Origin: Planctomycetota bacterium
GTDB lineage: Bacteria; Planctomycetota; JAJSAM01; JAJVHW01
Assembly: GCA_021414065.1 (NCBI GenBank)
Contig: JAIOPE010000015.1
Coordinates: forward strand, 24,140-88,139
Direction: 5' to 3'
DNA length: 64,000 bases
Shown: positions 55,995 to 64,000 of the stretch, piece after piece
Numbering within the stretch: position 1 is the stretch's first letter
Layout of the letters: every line of letters starts with the position of its first letter
Translations under genes and position numbers: made by a program
The notes under the pieces: generated by a model
The model's input: the letters and a program-made list of their open reading frames with translations, nothing else
The model's database searches: none
Told to the model about the DNA's origin: nothing

Positions 55995-58190
55995 CTACGC
56001 GCGCTGGCTGTGATCCGTCGCGAGGCGTGCGTCCATCTGCGCTTCGAGTTGTGCGCGGATGTCCGGCGCGTTCGTGAACACGTCGCGGAACACCTTGCCG
56101 CGAAGCGTCGCGAACACGCAGTCGGTGACGGTCGTCACCGACGCCGTGCGCGGCACCTGGCGCAGAAGTGCCACCTCGCCGAAGAAGTCGCCGTCGTTCA
56201 GACGGGCGATCTCGCGGTCGCTTCCCTCAGCGTCCGGGATCGACACCGACACCGTTCCGTGCGCGACGATGAAGAAGCGTTCGCCTTTGTCGCCGTACGT
56301 GATGACTCTTCGACCGGCGGCGACCCTTTCGATGATGAAGAGCCCGGCCGTCTGCGTGAGCACCGCGGCGTCGAGACCGCTGAAGATCGAGATGCGGCGG
56401 AGCCAATCGGGACGCACGTGGCCGTCGTTGCCGGTCTCTGAGAGCGACACGCCGGACTGTTTGTCCCAAAGTGCGGCGTAGGCGCCGCCGCGGGCGACGA
56501 GATCCGCGTGGCGCCCCTGCTCTGCGACGCGGCCGTCTTGGAAGACGACGATCTGGTCGGCGCCCATGGCGGTGCTGAGTCGATGGGTCACGGAGATCAT
56601 CGTGCGCCCGGCGCGGACGCGGTCTAGCGTCTCCTGCACGGCGGCCTCGGTCGTCGGATCGAGCGCCGACGTGGCTTCGTCGAGGAGGAGGATGCGCGGG
56701 TTTCGCAAGAGCGCGCGTGCGAGTGCGATGCGTTGGCGTTCGCCGCCGGAGAGCGACTTTCCGAACTGGAAGATGGGCGTGGCGTATCCCTGCGGCAGGG
56801 CCACGATCGCGTCGTGGACGCCGGCCGCGCGGGCGGCGTCTTCGATCTCGGTGTCTGTGGCCCAGGGGCGTCCGCGGCGGATGTTGTCGCGGATCGTGGT
56901 CTCGAAGAGGAAGCCCTCCTGGAACACCACGGCCATCTGGCCGTACAGCGTCTTCTTCGTCACGTGTCGGAGGTCTTGACCGTCGAAGAGGACCGTGCCG
57001 GACTTCGGATCGTAGAAGCTCATGATGAGGCTGAGCGCAGTGCTCTTCCCCGACCCGCTGCCGCCGACGAATGCGACCGACGTGTCGGCCTGGATCGTGA
57101 GATCGGGCACCTGCAGGACGACCCGATCCTTCTCGTACCCGAATTCGACGCCGCGCAGGACGATGTCGCGCTTGAGCGGTGGGAGCGGCGCGGCGTTCGG
57201 CGCCTCTGCGACATCCACCGGGAGCGCCAGGATCTCCTCGATGCGGCGCACGCTGACCGCGGTGCGGATGAGGACGGGCACCGTGCCGGCCATTTCGCGG
57301 ACAGCGATGGCGAGCGATTGAACGACCGAGTAGTACGCGACGAGTTCGCCGACCTTCAGCGACTTGTCGAACACGTACCAACTTCCGACCGCGAGGACCG
57401 CGATGCTCATCCCTTGCAGCGCGATCGCGGGTGTTCGCTCCGCAAAGGCGTTCAGCATGTTGAACCGCACCAGGAGCGGATGGAGGGCCGCCTGGTGTTT
57501 CTGGAACTCCTCGGTCGCCATGCTGTCGAGTTGGTACGCGCGAACGACGTTCTGCGCGTTGAGCGTCTGGTTCACAGTGTTCGAGGTGTTGCGGAGTTCG
57601 CGCTTCACTTCGTGCCCCTTGGCGACTGCGCGGGGAGTGAGAAGCCGTGGCCCGAGGATCATGAACGGCACGGCGATCGCGCAAACGAGCGTGAGTCGCT
57701 GATCGAGGAACGAGAGGGCGACCGCCGCGAACAGAATGGCGATGATGGCCGACACTGCGGACATCACAGCGGCGAACGCCGTCTCGATCGCGCCGATGTC
57801 GCCGTTGAAGCGACCCATGAGATCGTTCACCTTGACGTGCGCGAAGTAGCCGCTCGACAGTCCCTGTAGATGCTTGAAGTAGCGTTCGCGGACATCGTTC
57901 GTGAAGTTGGCAGCGAGGCGGGCCTGGAGGACGTCGCGAGAGAGGTGCGCCGCGGTGCTCACGACGACGGCCGCCGCGATCACGATCACGACCGTGATCG
58001 TCGCGTCGGCGTTCATCGGCTTCAGCCCGGTCTCGATCAGGTCCTTCAGTGCCATGCGTTGCACGAGATCGGCGATCACGCGCACCACAACGGCAGCGAT
58101 GAGGACTGTGGCGAGCCCACGCCACGGTCGAACGTAGCGCAACAGCGTGCGCACGGCGGCTACGGGTCCAAATGGATCTGGGAGGGGCAT
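55995..58190 (-). CDS. ABC exporter (TM plus ATPase) with C-terminal cyclic nucleotide-binding domain
   Basis: TM domain, Walker A GGSGSGKST, LSGGERQRIALARALLRNPRILLLDEATSALD, then cNMP-type ISIFSGLDAAVLTQTAGLFIIERVAAGRRVITYGDKGERFFIVAHGTVSVSI...LNDGDFFGEVALL. Confidence 0.92.
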   Translation of the reverse strand: MPLPDPFGPVAAVRTLLRYVRPWRGLATVLIAAVVVRVIADLVQRMALKDLIETGLKPMNADATITVVIVIAAAVVVSTAAHLSRDVLQARLAANFTNDVRERYFKHLQGLSSGYFAHVKVNDLMGRFNGDIGAIETAFAAVMSAVSAIIAILFAAVALSFLDQRLTLVCAIAVPFMILGPRLLTPRAVAKGHEVKRELRNTSNTVNQTLNAQNVVRAYQLDSMATEEFQKHQAALHPLLVRFNMLNAFAERTPAIALQGMSIAVLAVGSWYVFDKSLKVGELVAYYSVVQSLAIAVREMAGTVPVLIRTAVSVRRIEEILALPVDVAEAPNAAPLPPLKRDIVLRGVEFGYEKDRVVLQVPDLTIQADTSVAFVGGSGSGKSTALSLIMSFYDPKSGTVLFDGQDLRHVTKKTLYGQMAVVFQEGFLFETTIRDNIRRGRPWATDTEIEDAARAAGVHDAIVALPQGYATPIFQFGKSLSGGERQRIALARALLRNPRILLLDEATSALDPTTEAAVQETLDRVRAGRTMISVTHRLSTAMGADQIVVFQDGRVAEQGRHADLVARGGAYAALWDKQSGVSLSETGNDGHVRPDWLRRISIFSGLDAAVLTQTAGLFIIERVAAGRRVITYGDKGERFFIVAHGTVSVSIPDAEGSDREIARLNDGDFFGEVALLRQVPRTASVTTVTDCVFATLRGKVFRDVFTNAPDIRAQLEAQMDARLATDHSQRA

Positions 58191-58383
58191 TGCGCGGTGG
58201 TGTGTCGCCGGATTGCACGGGGCTCCACGCCAAGCAGACCAAACGCAGGGGCCGAGCGCGAGAGTTTCGCGCTTCGGAAGCCCCGCACCGGCGTCAACGA
58301 TCGACGCGGCGCTGGGAAACTCGGAACGCCGATCGCTCGTCGCGGGCAGGAACCGGAACGACCCACCCGAGGAGCCCTCCCAC

Positions 58384-59104
58384 GTGACGGCGACGCTGTT
58401 CACTCCCCTGCAACTCGGATCGCTTACGCTGCCGAACCGCATCCTCATGGCGCCGCTCACACGGTGCCGTGGCGACACGGACCACGTTCCGATGCCGATC
58501 ATGGCCGAGTACTAGGCCCAGCGCGCGAGCGGCGGCCTCATCATCGCCGAGGCGACGATGGCGATCGAACGGCACTCGTCCTTCTGGCCGGAACCGGGCA
58601 TCTACTCGGCGGCGCAGGTCGCTGCGTGGCGGCGGACGACCGACGCCGTGCACGCCGCGGGCGGGTGCATCTTCCTTCAACTTTGGCACGGCGGGCGTGC
58701 CTGTCATCCGCTCCTCAACAACGGTGCTCGGCCGGTGGCCCCGAGCGCACTTCCGATCCTCAACGACGAGGTACACACGCCGCAGGGGAAGAAGCCGTAC
58801 GTGGTGCCCCGCGAACTCCGCGATGACGAGATCCCCGGGATTGTGACGGGCTTCGCGAAGGGGCGCAGAACGCGAATTCGGCCGGGTTCGACGGTGTCGA
58901 GATCCACGGCGCGAACGGGTATCTCTTGGACGAGTTCTGGCGCGACGACGCGAACCAGCGCAAGGTCCGGTACGGAGGTTCCGCCGAGAACCGTTCGCGG
59001 CTCATGCTCGAGGTTGTCGCTGCGGCGGGTGCCGTGAGGGGGAGCGACCGCGTCGGCCTCCGTATCTCCCCGCTCAACAGCTGCAACAGCATGATCGACA
59101 ATCA
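58384..59104 (+). pseudogene. Disrupted Old Yellow Enzyme-family alkene reductase
   Basis: LFTPLQLGSLTLPNRILMAPLTRCR then in-frame TAG (58513-58515) in MAEY*AQRASGGLIIAEAT; frameshift near 58863; FDGVEIHGANGYLLDEFWRDDANQRKVRYGGSAENRSR in another frame; 3' end missing. Confidence 0.88.
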
Positions 59105-59143
59105 CCTCTCCTCGAGATCCGCGCACCGCACGCGTCTGGGCGC
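59105..59143 (+). repeat. Dispersed direct repeat, copy 2
   Basis: ACCTCTCCTCGAGATCCGCGCACCGCACGCGTCTGGGCG; begins where the OYE pseudogene is truncated. Confidence 0.9.
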
Positions 59144-59372
59144 ACGCCCCTGGGTGTCACGTCAGTCGCGGTGGCCGCGGCCCGCGGCCGCGGCGCGGAG
59201 GGCTCGCTGCGACGAAAGTGCCCAGCCGCCGCCGGATGCCGGCGCGACGACGAGTTCGTGAGGTTGTGGGGACCGTCCCCAGGTGCCACGGCATCGCCGT
59301 CGCCCCTCGCGGCTCCAGCGACGATCGGCAAACCTGAACCGATTCCGACGCGACATCCGATTCTGTGGATAG

Positions 59373-62300
59373 ATGTCGATGCGTCGTTCTGCCCGCGCCC
59401 TTGGACCGGAGGCGCTGCTCGTTCACAGGGAGTGGATCGAGCGCGTCGCGCGTGCGCTCGTCCGCGGCGACGCGGACGCCGACGATCTGTCGCAGCAGGC
59501 ATGGGTCGAACTGCTTTCGCGCCCGCCGGAACGAGAGCCCGAGCGGCTGCGGGGATGGCTGCGGTCGGTGCTTCGGTTCAAGGCGATCGACGCCAGGAGA
59601 TCGGCGGGGGCTCGCAGCCGCCACGAGACGGCGGCGGCGCGAGACGCACGGGAGGGGGTCGATCCCGCCGATGTCGTCGCTCGTGCGGAGACCATCGACC
59701 GGGTCGCACACGCCGTGCTTGAACTCGACGAGCCCTATCGCACGACGGTCCTCTTGCGCTGGTTCGAGGATCTGCCGCCCCGCGAGATCTCGAAGCGACA
59801 GGGCATTCCCGTGGAGACCGTGCGGACACGGCTGAAGCGGGCCCTTGCTCGGCTTCGCACGCGCTTGGACGCCGACAGCGGCGGCGACCGGCGCGCGTGG
59901 TGTCTGGCGCTGCTCCCGTTTGCAGGATCGTCGCGCGAGAGCCTCGTGTCCGCGACGGTCACCGGAGGTCTGGCCATGGGGATGAAGACGTGGGGCGCAG
60001 CGGCCGTAGCTCTCTTGGTGCTCGGCCTGGGCGTGACGTGGTTCAGATCGCAGTCGGCCGTGGAGACGTCGAAGCTCGGCTCGGTCGGTCCGCTGGACAC
60101 CGGCGTCGGTCGGACACTCCCGCGCGACCATCGCGCTGCGTCGCAAGCCGACGTGCTCCCGCCTTCCGTCGATCTGAACGCATGCGACCGGGATTTGGAC
60201 CTGCACGGCGTCGTCGTCGCCTCGGATGGCGCTCCGGTGGCCGGCGCGCGCGTCGCGACGTCCGACTTCCGTTGGCAGCGTACGAGCCTTCTCAACATGG
60301 AGGTCGGATACGACGCGACGCCGGGTCCCGAAACCCGGACAGCGGGCGACGGCACGTTCTCGTTGCGGCTGCGCCGAGGGGCGCAGGTGCTGTTGACGGC
60401 GAGCGCGCCTGGGTTCGCGCCGACCGAGCTTCCCGCCTGCCAAGCGGGTGAGCGCGTGCGGGTGGTCCTCGGACCGGGCGTACGCCTCATCCTGCATTGC
60501 CGCGACGAGACCGGCGCCCCGGTCACGGGGGCGACGGTCTGGCTCTCGCCCTTCGATCCGTCGCACCGGGTTCCGTCCGGCAGGCTGCTGAGCCTCTCCG
60601 ACGCTGCGGGCGACTGCGTGGTCCCCAGTGTCCGTCCGAGTTCCACGCTCATGGTGATGGCCGTTCATCCGCGATTCGTGAACGCATCCGACGGGGGCAT
60701 GATCGCGATCCCGGCCAGCGGAACTGCGGAGCAGACGCTCCAGTTCCGCAAGGCGCGGATGCTACGCGGGCGCGTGACGGATGCGTCGACCGCTACTCCC
60801 GTGCAAGGTGCGCGCATCAATACAGGCTGGTCGTTCACGACCTGGGTGGAGACGGACGCCGAAGGGCGTTTCGAACTCGCCGGCGCCGCCGAGAGCGACT
60901 TCGGGATGCGGGTCCGTGCGGCTGGCTACGCCGAGTCACAGGCGCGACTCACTTCCGCCGACACGTACGACGTTGCACTTCTGCGCGGCGACCGCGTGCA
61001 GGGACGCCTCGTGGGGCCCGACGGCAAGCCTGTCGGCGAGGCGCTGATCGGGGTGACGAGCCACGGCGGGGGCGGCAGCGACCGTGCGTTCGACGCGACG
61101 AGCGACGCGGACGGTCGTTTCGCCGTCGAGGACTTGCGCCACGACCAGCCGCACACTCTGACATTCCTCGCAGCGGGCCTTGGACGTTATCTGCTCGACT
61201 TCGATCCCGCCGCGCAGGAGGGCGGGACGATCGACGTCGGCGATGTCGCGTTGCCCGCAGCGCGGATGATCGAGGGGCGGGTCGTGGATGACGGCGGCGC
61301 TCCCGTGCCCGGAGCGGCGGTGCGTCTCTACGGGTTCAACGAGGACCGCGAGCGACTGCGTCCCGGCAAGTCGTTCGTCAGCACGCACTATGGGTGTCGC
61401 GAAGAGCGGCGGACCGACGACCTCGGGCGCTTCCGCTTCCCGGAACTGTGTCCCGGAGACTACGACCTCGACGTCGTCACGGCCGACGTGCGCACCACGC
61501 AGACCTCCGTGGCACTGGCTGCGGATCGCGACGTGGCCGGCGTCGAGTTGAAGCTCCCGGGCGGAAAGCAGTTCGTCGTGGACGTGAAGGACAGCCAGGG
61601 TGCGCCGGCCGCGGGAGTCACCGTCCAAGTCGTGATACGCGACGGATGGTCCGGGTCGCAGACGACGCAGGCGGACGGCCGCGTCGCGTTCTCCGTGACG
61701 TCCGATGTCGTGTCGTTGAGCGCGTTCAGTTGGACGAAGGCGCTGCTCTTTGCGCCCTCACGCCGCGTAGAGGCCGGCGCAACGACGGCGACGGTCGTCC
61801 TCCGCAATGCGCGCGCGGTCCGCGGCCGCATCGTCGATCCCGAGGGACGACGGCTCGTTCCGGGGAATGTAGGCCTTCGAGTGTTCGAAGGCGGACGCCC
61901 CATGCCCGTCGATCCGTGGGGCCAGAACGTGATGGGCACGTTCAACGACGCCTCGTTCGAGGCGTCCGTGCCGCTCGACGGCGCGATCGATCTTGTCGTG
62001 GACCCCGTCGTCGCATCGGACGGACGACTGCTTCAGGGCGAACTGCGCGGCATCCGGCCCGACGCGACGGACGTGGTGCTGCAGACTCGCATCGTTCCGC
62101 TTGATCGAGAGCTGACGGTGATCGTGCTCAATCCCGATGGTCGTCCCGAGGCGGGCGCTGAGGTGGAGGCGTCGATCGCGCCCGGGCGCTCCACAAAGCG
62201 TGTCGTCGCAGGTCCCACCGGCCGCGCCTACCTTGAAGGTCTGCCCGCCACGCCCGTCACGATCTACGCGACACTCCCGGCGGATCATCCACACCGCGCG

Positions 62301-62642
62301 GATTGGATCGCGGCGAGCGTCGCGAGCGCGAGGGCGGACGCGGGTGAGGTCGAGCTGATGTTCACCGAGGGGCGGCGCGTTGCGGGAGTCGTTCGCAGTC
62401 CGGATGGCCGTCCGCTGAAGGGCGCAAGCGTCTGGGTCTATCGATCGCAGCACGTCTTCGCGCAACTCATGAGCGATGACGACGGGCGGTTCGCGTTCCC
62501 CGCGCCGTTCGCGGAATCGAAGTCGCTGTACCTGCTCGCGTGGAAGCAGCCGGCGGACGGCGTCCAGTGGGAGGCTCGGCTGGACGGCATCCCGGACTCC
62601 GCGGCGGAGCTTGAGCTCACGTTGAAGCTGGCGGGGCGGTAG
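59373..62642 (+). CDS. ECF sigma factor fused to TM helix and extracytoplasmic carboxypeptidase-regulatory-like domains
   Basis: ALVRGDADADDLSQQAWVELLSRPP region 2, LPPREISKRQGIPVETVRTRLKRALARLRTRL region 4, TM WGAAAVALLVLGLGVTWF, then repeats such as GVVVASDGAPVAGARV, GRVVDDGGAPVPGAAVRLYG, GVVRSPDGRPLKGASVWVY. Confidence 0.88.
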   Translation: MSMRRSARALGPEALLVHREWIERVARALVRGDADADDLSQQAWVELLSRPPEREPERLRGWLRSVLRFKAIDARRSAGARSRHETAAARDAREGVDPADVVARAETIDRVAHAVLELDEPYRTTVLLRWFEDLPPREISKRQGIPVETVRTRLKRALARLRTRLDADSGGDRRAWCLALLPFAGSSRESLVSATVTGGLAMGMKTWGAAAVALLVLGLGVTWFRSQSAVETSKLGSVGPLDTGVGRTLPRDHRAASQADVLPPSVDLNACDRDLDLHGVVVASDGAPVAGARVATSDFRWQRTSLLNMEVGYDATPGPETRTAGDGTFSLRLRRGAQVLLTASAPGFAPTELPACQAGERVRVVLGPGVRLILHCRDETGAPVTGATVWLSPFDPSHRVPSGRLLSLSDAAGDCVVPSVRPSSTLMVMAVHPRFVNASDGGMIAIPASGTAEQTLQFRKARMLRGRVTDASTATPVQGARINTGWSFTTWVETDAEGRFELAGAAESDFGMRVRAAGYAESQARLTSADTYDVALLRGDRVQGRLVGPDGKPVGEALIGVTSHGGGGSDRAFDATSDADGRFAVEDLRHDQPHTLTFLAAGLGRYLLDFDPAAQEGGTIDVGDVALPAARMIEGRVVDDGGAPVPGAAVRLYGFNEDRERLRPGKSFVSTHYGCREERRTDDLGRFRFPELCPGDYDLDVVTADVRTTQTSVALAADRDVAGVELKLPGGKQFVVDVKDSQGAPAAGVTVQVVIRDGWSGSQTTQADGRVAFSVTSDVVSLSAFSWTKALLFAPSRRVEAGATTATVVLRNARAVRGRIVDPEGRRLVPGNVGLRVFEGGRPMPVDPWGQNVMGTFNDASFEASVPLDGAIDLVVDPVVASDGRLLQGELRGIRPDATDVVLQTRIVPLDRELTVIVLNPDGRPEAGAEVEASIAPGRSTKRVVAGPTGRAYLEGLPATPVTIYATLPADHPHRADWIAASVASARADAGEVELMFTEGRRVAGVVRSPDGRPLKGASVWVYRSQHVFAQLMSDDDGRFAFPAPFAESKSLYLLAWKQPADGVQWEARLDGIPDSAAELELTLKLAGR

Positions 62643-62948
62643 CGCGACCCATGGCCGTTCGCGTCGATCGCCGTTTCCCCGGACTCCATCGCCCTCTCCC
62701 GCCGCCGAGCCGACAGCGCGGTCGCGGAGATCCGCGTCGTCCCAAGGCTTGCGTGCCCCAACGTGCTGCCACCGGTCTGCCACGCAGCTGGGTCCAGCCG
62801 ATCGGCACCGACTCCGAGGACCGCGTTGCGGGCGGAGCACCGGAACTCCCGGAGACGAATCGCCGAGCAGCGGCCCTAATCTGCAGATGCGACCGAACTC
62901 TGGACGAGCTGGACCCGCGACCGCGACGAGCGGTCGTTCGAGTCTCTC

Positions 62949-64000
62949 GTGGTGCCGGAACTGCCGCATGCACTGAGCTTCGCGAGGCGGCTCGGATGCA
63001 GTGCCGCCGACGCCGAGGACGCGCTGCAGGATGCTCTCGCCCGTCTCTCCGCGGTTCGCGACGACGCACCCACGAGCCTGGGCGTTCGGGCGTGGCTCTG
63101 CCGCGAGGTGCACCAGTCTGCCCGAACTCGGCTTCGGTCGGAGCGGCGGCGCAGGACGCGTGAGGTGGCCACGGCCGTACCGCCGGGAGCGCATCGCGTC
63201 GACTCGGCGACCGCGATCCGCGACGAGGTCGAGTTCGCCCTGTCGGGGCTCGACGACGACGAGCGGGTCGCGGTGCAGCTCCGGTACCTGCACGACCTCG
63301 ACTACAAGGACATCGCGAACGTGCTCGGGGCGTCGGAGGGGGCGTGCCGACAGCGGGTTCACAAGGCCCTCGCGCGCCTGCGGGTGCGATTGGGGGGCGA
63401 CGCCGCGGCGCTCGTAGCGGCGCTGCCGCTGCCGGTGATCCGCGACGCATCGGCAATCGTGAAGGGTGCGATAGCGAAGGCGACGGCCGTCTCGGCTGCG
63501 TCGGGAGGGGTGGTGGTCATGGCGACGACGACTCAGAAGATCGCGATCGTGGCGATCGCCGCAGCAGCGCTCGGCGTCGGCGGGACGCTCACGGTCCAGC
63601 ATGCCGTGGGAACGCCGGACCCGGCACTGCCGGTCACGAACGTCGTTGAGCCGACGCGCGAGGGGAGGACCAGGACGCGCGTGGCGGGACGGGCTGACGA
63701 TGCGGTGCCCGCTTCGGAGGTGGAGGCGCTGAAGGCGCGCATCACCGAACTCGAGCTGAGCCTTGCGGGGACTCGTGAGAAGGCGGACGACCTGGACGCA
63801 ATGGACCCGATGGCCGTGCTCGTCTACTCGAGGAAGCCGATCGCGTGGAAGGCGAAGAGGCTCCTCGAGATCGCCGACGAGCGCCAGCGCTGGGCGGCGA
63901 TGGGGAAGGTCGCGCAGGTGCTCGCTGAGAAGGAGAGCAGCGGACGCGAGTTCCTCGACGCGCTGAAGTCGGAGACCGATCCGAAGGTGATCGGGATGCT
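62949..64000 (+). CDS. Second ECF sigma factor fused to TM helix and C-terminal region, truncated by window end
   Basis: Reading frame open from 62880 (TAA at 62877-62879) to window end; LPHALSFARRLGCSAADAEDALQDALARL, LDDDERVAVQLRYLHDLDYKDIANVLGASEGACRQRVHKALARLRVRL, TM KIAIVAIAAAALGVGGTLTV. GTG start uncertain. Not in the supplied ORF track. Confidence 0.75.
   Translation, partial: MVPELPHALSFARRLGCSAADAEDALQDALARLSAVRDDAPTSLGVRAWLCREVHQSARTRLRSERRRRTREVATAVPPGAHRVDSATAIRDEVEFALSGLDDDERVAVQLRYLHDLDYKDIANVLGASEGACRQRVHKALARLRVRLGGDAAALVAALPLPVIRDASAIVKGAIAKATAVSAASGGVVVMATTTQKIAIVAIAAAALGVGGTLTVQHAVGTPDPALPVTNVVEPTREGRTRTRVAGRADDAVPASEVEALKARITELELSLAGTREKADDLDAMDPMAVLVYSRKPIAWKAKRLLEIADERQRWAAMGKVAQVLAEKESSGREFLDALKSETDPKVIGM

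Follow-up and report, generated by a model that had tools for sequence, protein, structure and literature searches.

Does the gene at 59373–62642 of the window (the whole 64,000-nucleotide stretch of Planctomycetota DNA analysed here) encode a sigma factor held in the membrane by a large extracytoplasmic domain array, and is that single chain the only product of the gene? Sigma factors fused to transmembrane (TM) segments are already known, as are planctomycete ECF sigma factors with WD40 or N-terminal extensions. Tethered ECF sigma factors number only a handful of known cases, whereas in some Planctomycetota a single genome has dozens of members of the family described here.

Domain architecture of the fused gene

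The open reading frame (ORF) is intact on the forward strand, without an internal stop (Table 1). By its domains the product falls within the ECF (group 4 sigma-70) class, with regions 2 and 4 present and regions 1 and 3 absent. It passes the NCBIfam model TIGR02937 (sigma70-ECF) with 78.3 bits against a cut-off of 42.9, and stays below the cut-offs of TIGR02984 (Planctomycetaceae subfamily; 41.5 against 183.75 bits) and TIGR02989 (Rhodopirellula-Verrucomicrobium; 39.2 against 124.55 bits). AlphaFold, run on the sigma-TM part with an alignment of 110 sequences, modelled residues ~11–183 with confidence as a sigma fold, including an extra helix (173–183) after sigma4, and predicted disorder in the linker before the TM helix (186–206) and again after it (226–265). 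A Foldseek search with this model, used solely as confirmation of the ECF fold, matched SigW, SigE, SigH and SigL (best E 8.9e-6), with TM-scores on the target of up to 0.84 for region 4 alone and low values for the whole chain. The extra helix lies within a family-specific segment of consensus GGDRRAWxxALLPLA, in which the W is found in 77% and the L in 81% of family members; the helix (pLDDT ~93–96) could dock either on sigma or on the membrane.

A hydropathy scan found a strong TM segment directly after sigma in this gene and in the paralogous ORFs. The mean net charge flanking the segment, +1.3 before and −0.9 after, matches the expectation for an N-in/C-out orientation. The 864 residues that follow contain seven CarboxypepD_reg stretches (Pfam, 1e-53), and a separate AlphaFold model of the full-length chain resolves residues 266–1089 into about nine beta-sandwich domains. 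The preliminary description, which had read ECF regions 2 and 4, a single TM segment and about 850 residues of carboxypeptidase-regulatory-like repeats into one ORF, is borne out: both sigma regions are found by Pfam within a confidently modelled fold that passes TIGR02937, hydropathy and the AlphaFold helix agree on one TM segment at ~206–225, and the length and content of the tail are close to those claimed. The evidence supports a sigma factor tethered to the membrane and joined to a large array outside the cytoplasm.

Table 1 Features of the fused gene and its neighbour, in window coordinates
Feature	Position	Strand	Basis
Full-length ORF: ECF sigma, linker, TM, extracytoplasmic array (1089 aa)	59373..62642	+	73% identical orthologue
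Sigma-70 region 2, aa 18–79	59424..59609	+	Pfam PF04542 (Sigma70_r2, E 8e-9), AlphaFold
Sigma-70 region 4, aa 110–161	59700..59855	+	Pfam PF08281 (Sigma70_r4_2, 2e-10), AlphaFold
Family-specific post-sigma4 segment, GGDRRAWxxALLPLA, ordered helix 173–183	59883..59930	+	Predicted
Single TM segment, ~aa 206–225	59988..60047	+	Hydropathy, AlphaFold helix
Extracytoplasmic array, ~nine beta-sandwich CarboxypepD_reg/Ig-like domains, aa 266–1089	60168..62639	+	Pfam, AlphaFold
Internal Shine-Dalgarno GGAGG, 7 nt before internal ATG	59964..59968	+	Kept in 73% orthologue
Predicted second product MGMK-TM-receptor, 888 aa, without sigma	59976..62642	+	Start spacing, mRNA structure, frame, codon
ECF-type −35-like box TGAACCGATTC, 38 nt upstream of sigma start codon	59335..59345	+	TGAACC, family position
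Second, divergent ECF-TM gene, cut by contig end	62949..64000	+	Pfam sigma r2 and r4
Internal Shine-Dalgarno (GGGAGGGG, 63503–63510) and in-frame ATG (63519) of second gene, ahead of TM	63503..63521	+	

Directly 3' of the gene, at 62880–64000 of the window, lies a second ECF-TM gene. The first start codon usable for it is GTG 62949, but its sigma N-terminus can be read from well before this point, with no in-frame ATG, so that its start is either unusual or affected by an indel. Just upstream of the fused gene, at 58147–59258, lie pieces of an NADH:flavin oxidoreductase in different frames (PF00724 profile positions 2–41, 69–156 and 180–236), which represent either a broken gene or assembly indels, and the reverse strand at 55995–58502 encodes an ABC exporter (membrane and ATPase parts) with a fused C-terminal cyclic-nucleotide-binding domain.

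A family of sigma-receptor fusions

The source genome (5.5 Mb in 184 contigs, ~88% complete) has 72 sigma-70 matches, at least 19 of which combine an ECF sigma factor, a single TM segment and a long tail; related genomes have as many as 94, 102 and 151 sigma-70 matches. A contig scan with the 59373 protein as the single query gave one true relative, and a wider genome search was then used. A model of the sigma-linker-TM region scored with E below 1e-40 in ~60 of 294 Planctomycetota genomes, belonging by our own count to roughly 24 families, the other genomes giving generic ECF scores alone (~1e-20 to 1e-38). Fused ORFs were gathered from mostly draft assemblies, using the window gene and its relatives as the basis for similarity: 129 distinct ORFs from 13 genomes and 58 from ~30 further genomes, 187 altogether. 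Their sigma N-terminal starts were assigned by rule, the start codon being ambiguous in some.

The order sigma, TM, tail is the same in all 187, and every member whose sigma part scores in full is an in-frame fusion, the exceptions being ORFs truncated where the retrieved sequence ends and one in which no clear TM segment is seen. CarboxypepD_reg was found in 42 of the 59 tails scanned, where further beta-sandwich families are also common. The closest relative of the window gene, in another Planctomycetota MAG, is a full-length orthologue with 73% identity; this and the constant order across the distinct ORFs argue that the fusion did not arise by chance. On one contig (G000, C100:54832-89723, loci L051 and L052), a run of about nine weak sigma-70 matches shares a single strand, and Ser/Thr kinase-TM genes are interspersed.

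A probable internal start between sigma and the membrane helix

The junction of the window gene reads acc GGA GGT ctg gcc ATG ggg ATG aag, with the in-frame ATG at 59976 (codon 202) placed four codons ahead of the membrane helix. We scored such a site wherever GGAGG, AGGAG or GGAG stood 5–10 nt before an in-frame ATG or GTG in the short region between sigma and TM, and compared the counts with a null in which synonymous codons were shuffled with each ORF's own usage (500 runs). The site is present in 114 of the 187 fused ORFs, against a synonymous-codon expectation of ~26. The hypothesis of an internal start arose in the window's own genome. In the first set 80 of 129 ORFs have the site (null 18.9, s.d. 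3.6, maximum 31), and windows of equal size gave 8.3 in the tail and 3.1 in the sigma part. The independent set of 58 ORFs from the ~30 further genomes replicated the excess (34, against 7.5, s.d. 2.3), and it persisted when all 187 were thinned to below 50% sigma identity (31 of 56 against 8.0). About 39% of members have no recognisable Shine-Dalgarno sequence plus start, several of these having AAGGGA-type sites instead. The anti-Shine-Dalgarno sequence CCTCCTTTCT is the 3' end of 16S rRNA in relatives. Between the window gene and its 73% orthologue the bases around the site differ, GGAGG and ATG being common to both, and several reciprocal-best pairs with 37–71% identity have the internal site in both partners.

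A conserved site of this kind could in principle be a by-product of the protein sequence. If the full-length fusion were the sole product, a GG-x-x-M-x-x-K motif might be kept as a helix start or a protease site, and the motif is indeed visible at the protein level (G 84%, M 55%). The choice of codons is, however, strongly non-random given the amino acids. The Gly four codons before the ATG is encoded by GGA in 49 cases and GGG in 10, and GGC is not among the most frequent codons listed there, although it makes up 46% of Gly codons in the family ORFs. Of the 87 junctions that contain GGA-G, 42 have ATG, 15 have GTG and 3 have another Val codon at 8 nt downstream, and codons neighbouring this position are far less often ATG or GTG; the start codon thus sits at a fixed, optimal 7–8 nt from the Shine-Dalgarno sequence. 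The mRNA near the internal start is also more weakly structured than synonymous versions in which Shine-Dalgarno sequence and start were retained (−9.4 against −11.3 kcal/mol, s.d. 0.23), an effect absent at ATG and GTG codons taken as controls from other places in these ORFs. Since a protein-level motif would select neither those codons nor weak structure, we regard a purely protein-level cause as improbable. These sequence comparisons show selection at the coding level on the Shine-Dalgarno sequence, the start codon and weak mRNA structure at the internal site.

The site directly adjoins the TM segment, and Shine-Dalgarno-like pauses have been proposed earlier for membrane proteins. The element might therefore slow elongating ribosomes before the TM helix and aid its insertion, with no initiation at all. 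A pause would not account for a start codon retained at exactly 7–8 nt, and the genes for Ser/Thr kinases with a TM segment and an outside domain, taken from the same and related genomes, have the junction site in none of 32 cases. This control rules out a generic pause before TM helices, and we consider pausing here very improbable.

Programmed frameshifting near the Shine-Dalgarno sequence could free sigma, with the receptor re-initiated afterwards. Stops in the +1 frame are enriched near the internal start, where their frequency is 78%, compared with 30% for windows in the tail, and ATGA or GTGA occurs at the start in 51 of 114 ORFs. The synonymous null already gives 40.7 such cases, so that amino-acid context explains most of the excess, and stops in the +2 frame are depleted near the site. 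With the +1 enrichment mostly accounted for by the null, release of sigma by frameshifting was rejected and appears the least probable of all the readings considered.

The predicted internal products have a K or R within residues 1–8, directly before the hydrophobic segment, in 110 of 114 cases, an N-terminus that resembles a signal anchor. We conclude that the gene very probably encodes two in-frame products, a sigma-receptor and a sigma-free receptor. This modifies the preliminary description, which had assigned both signal sensing and the sigma function to a single polypeptide and had named separate translation, through an internal start or stop, as what would speak against it. The full-length fusion stands, but the internal start seen here and in most relatives would also yield a receptor without sigma. 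Neither a stop codon nor a frameshift signal was found, so it is the receptor that is separable from sigma and not sigma from the receptor.

Start and putative promoter of the sigma part

The N-terminal sigma starts differ from the internal ones in that a Shine-Dalgarno sequence lies near only 23 of 129, with anti-Shine-Dalgarno pairing energy not above background. Ordinary long ORFs in the same loci have one in ~21%, in accord with the small fraction of Shine-Dalgarno genes reported for Planctomycetes (PMC5397173). Upstream of the family genes the hexamer TGAACC is strongly enriched in a strand-specific manner: of 183 family ORFs, 47 have it 34–46 nt ahead of a start codon, against 1.2 expected, so that it is recognisable in only about a quarter of members. 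ECF promoters have a −35 element of the GGAAC/TGAAC type, ~35 nt from the transcription start. Taken with this spacing, the position of the box implies a transcript that begins at, or a few nucleotides before, the sigma ATG, and so a near-leaderless mRNA.

The exact sequence TGAACCGATTC occurs at 13 sites in four genomes, and 8 of these sites, the window gene's among them, are followed after 36–42 nt by the start codon of a family member. The five others have no family gene downstream, some lie inside other genes, and they look like chance occurrences; outside the family, the same search in the four genomes pointed to no convincing regulon. The presence of the box before the family's own genes suggests that these are autoregulated. 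GATTC/GAATC words are also enriched on both strands upstream of family genes, perhaps as an inverted-repeat site.

A proposed model for signalling by two products of one gene

We propose that a scarce full-length chain, consisting of the ECF sigma factor, flexible linker, TM helix and beta-sandwich receptor, would be translated from the near-leaderless start, and the sigma-free receptor (TM and array) from the internal Shine-Dalgarno site at codon 202. Sigma would be held at the membrane until cleavage in or near the TM segment freed it, and the freed sigma would probably use the TGAACC-type promoter to switch on the gene that encodes it. The model as a whole, with both receptors made from one gene, release and autoregulation, seems to us reasonably probable.

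Since no stop separates sigma from the TM segment, translation cannot give free sigma, so tethering would be obligatory and release most likely proteolytic. Tethering followed by release we hold to be probable, with good though not high confidence. By analogy, the proteolytic step would resemble that of IutY, a known sigma-TM-periplasmic chain which requires Prc/RseP cleavage (PMC5411451). The genome does contain site-2 proteases (PF02163), which are near-universal and hence not specific; neither a dedicated site-1 protease nor a ligand was identified. The lack of a dedicated protease would suit a permanent tether, in which sigma acts while bound to the membrane or the fusion merely limits the amount of sigma, and the disordered linker might allow sigma to reach RNA polymerase there. 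We consider a permanent tether unlikely, given the precedent of IutY and the established activity of regulated ECF factors as free sigma.

Both products would have the same outside domain, and with it ligand, partners and protease in common, and for this reason the free receptor would probably determine what share of all receptor carries tethered sigma, acting through mixed oligomers or through competition for ligand or protease. That it sets a response threshold in either of these ways is a tentative suggestion, to which we give somewhat less than even weight. We also raise, as a rather doubtful generalisation, that there is a class of Planctomycetota signalling systems in which the ratio of sigma-bearing to sigma-free receptor is set by leaderless versus Shine-Dalgarno initiation on one mRNA. 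If true, the state of translation initiation alone could shift the sensitivity of dozens of parallel autoregulated pathways.

The conserved internal start would mean that the receptor is needed without sigma too, and thereby add a new design rule to what is known of one-component signalling at the membrane, in a family in which no separate anti-sigma domain is recognised. Annotation of these genes as single proteins would overlook half of the family's products.

Comparison with known systems

We found no earlier report in the open-access literature of a conserved internal start between a sigma factor and its receptor, nor of CarboxypepD_reg/beta-sandwich domains combined with sigma factors. 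The comparisons that follow draw on the relevant portions of the papers cited.

The nearest parallel is IutY of Pseudomonas putida (ECF243), a sigma/anti-sigma hybrid (PMC5411451, PMC8999054) whose sigma part is freed when Prc and RseP remove the outer part (PMC5411451). Both IutY and, from sequence and model, the product of the window gene combine a cytosolic ECF sigma factor, a single TM segment and an outside domain in one chain. The outer part of IutY is a cell-surface-signalling anti-sigma domain for a TonB receptor, whereas that of the window gene is a CarboxypepD_reg/Ig-like array in which Pfam finds no FecR-type domain. IutY is described as unique and those portions report no internal start for it, in contrast to the large multi-paralogue family found here.

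C-terminal fusion of sigma to one or more TM helices is also a feature of ECF48, ECF52 and ECF53, SCO4117 having in addition a periplasmic sugar-binding region (PMC8999054). The window family shares the C-terminal fusion to a TM segment; these groups, as described there, are actinobacterial and have a zinc-finger anti-sigma (ZAS) segment, where the window family has the GGDRRAWxxALLPLA helix and a disordered linker. Pfam gives no zf-HC2-type match in the 59373 gene product, whose ~40 residues between sigma4 and TM are partly disordered. Among planctomycetes, ECF57 carries WD40-like repeats (PMC8999054) and the former ECF87–89 carry N-terminal extensions (PMC8999054, PMC8103513). The window family resembles these extended factors in its phylum, its expansion into paralogues and its large fused regions, and differs, on the same accounts, in having a TM segment and a beta-sandwich array in place of WD40-like or N-terminal extensions.

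Two isoforms from an in-frame internal start are known for CheA (long and short). ClpB likewise has two isoforms (PMC6168691, in the part concerned with them). Like these, the window gene would give two in-frame products from one ORF; unlike what is described for them, the internal start of the window family divides a transcription factor from a membrane receptor and recurs across most of its members.
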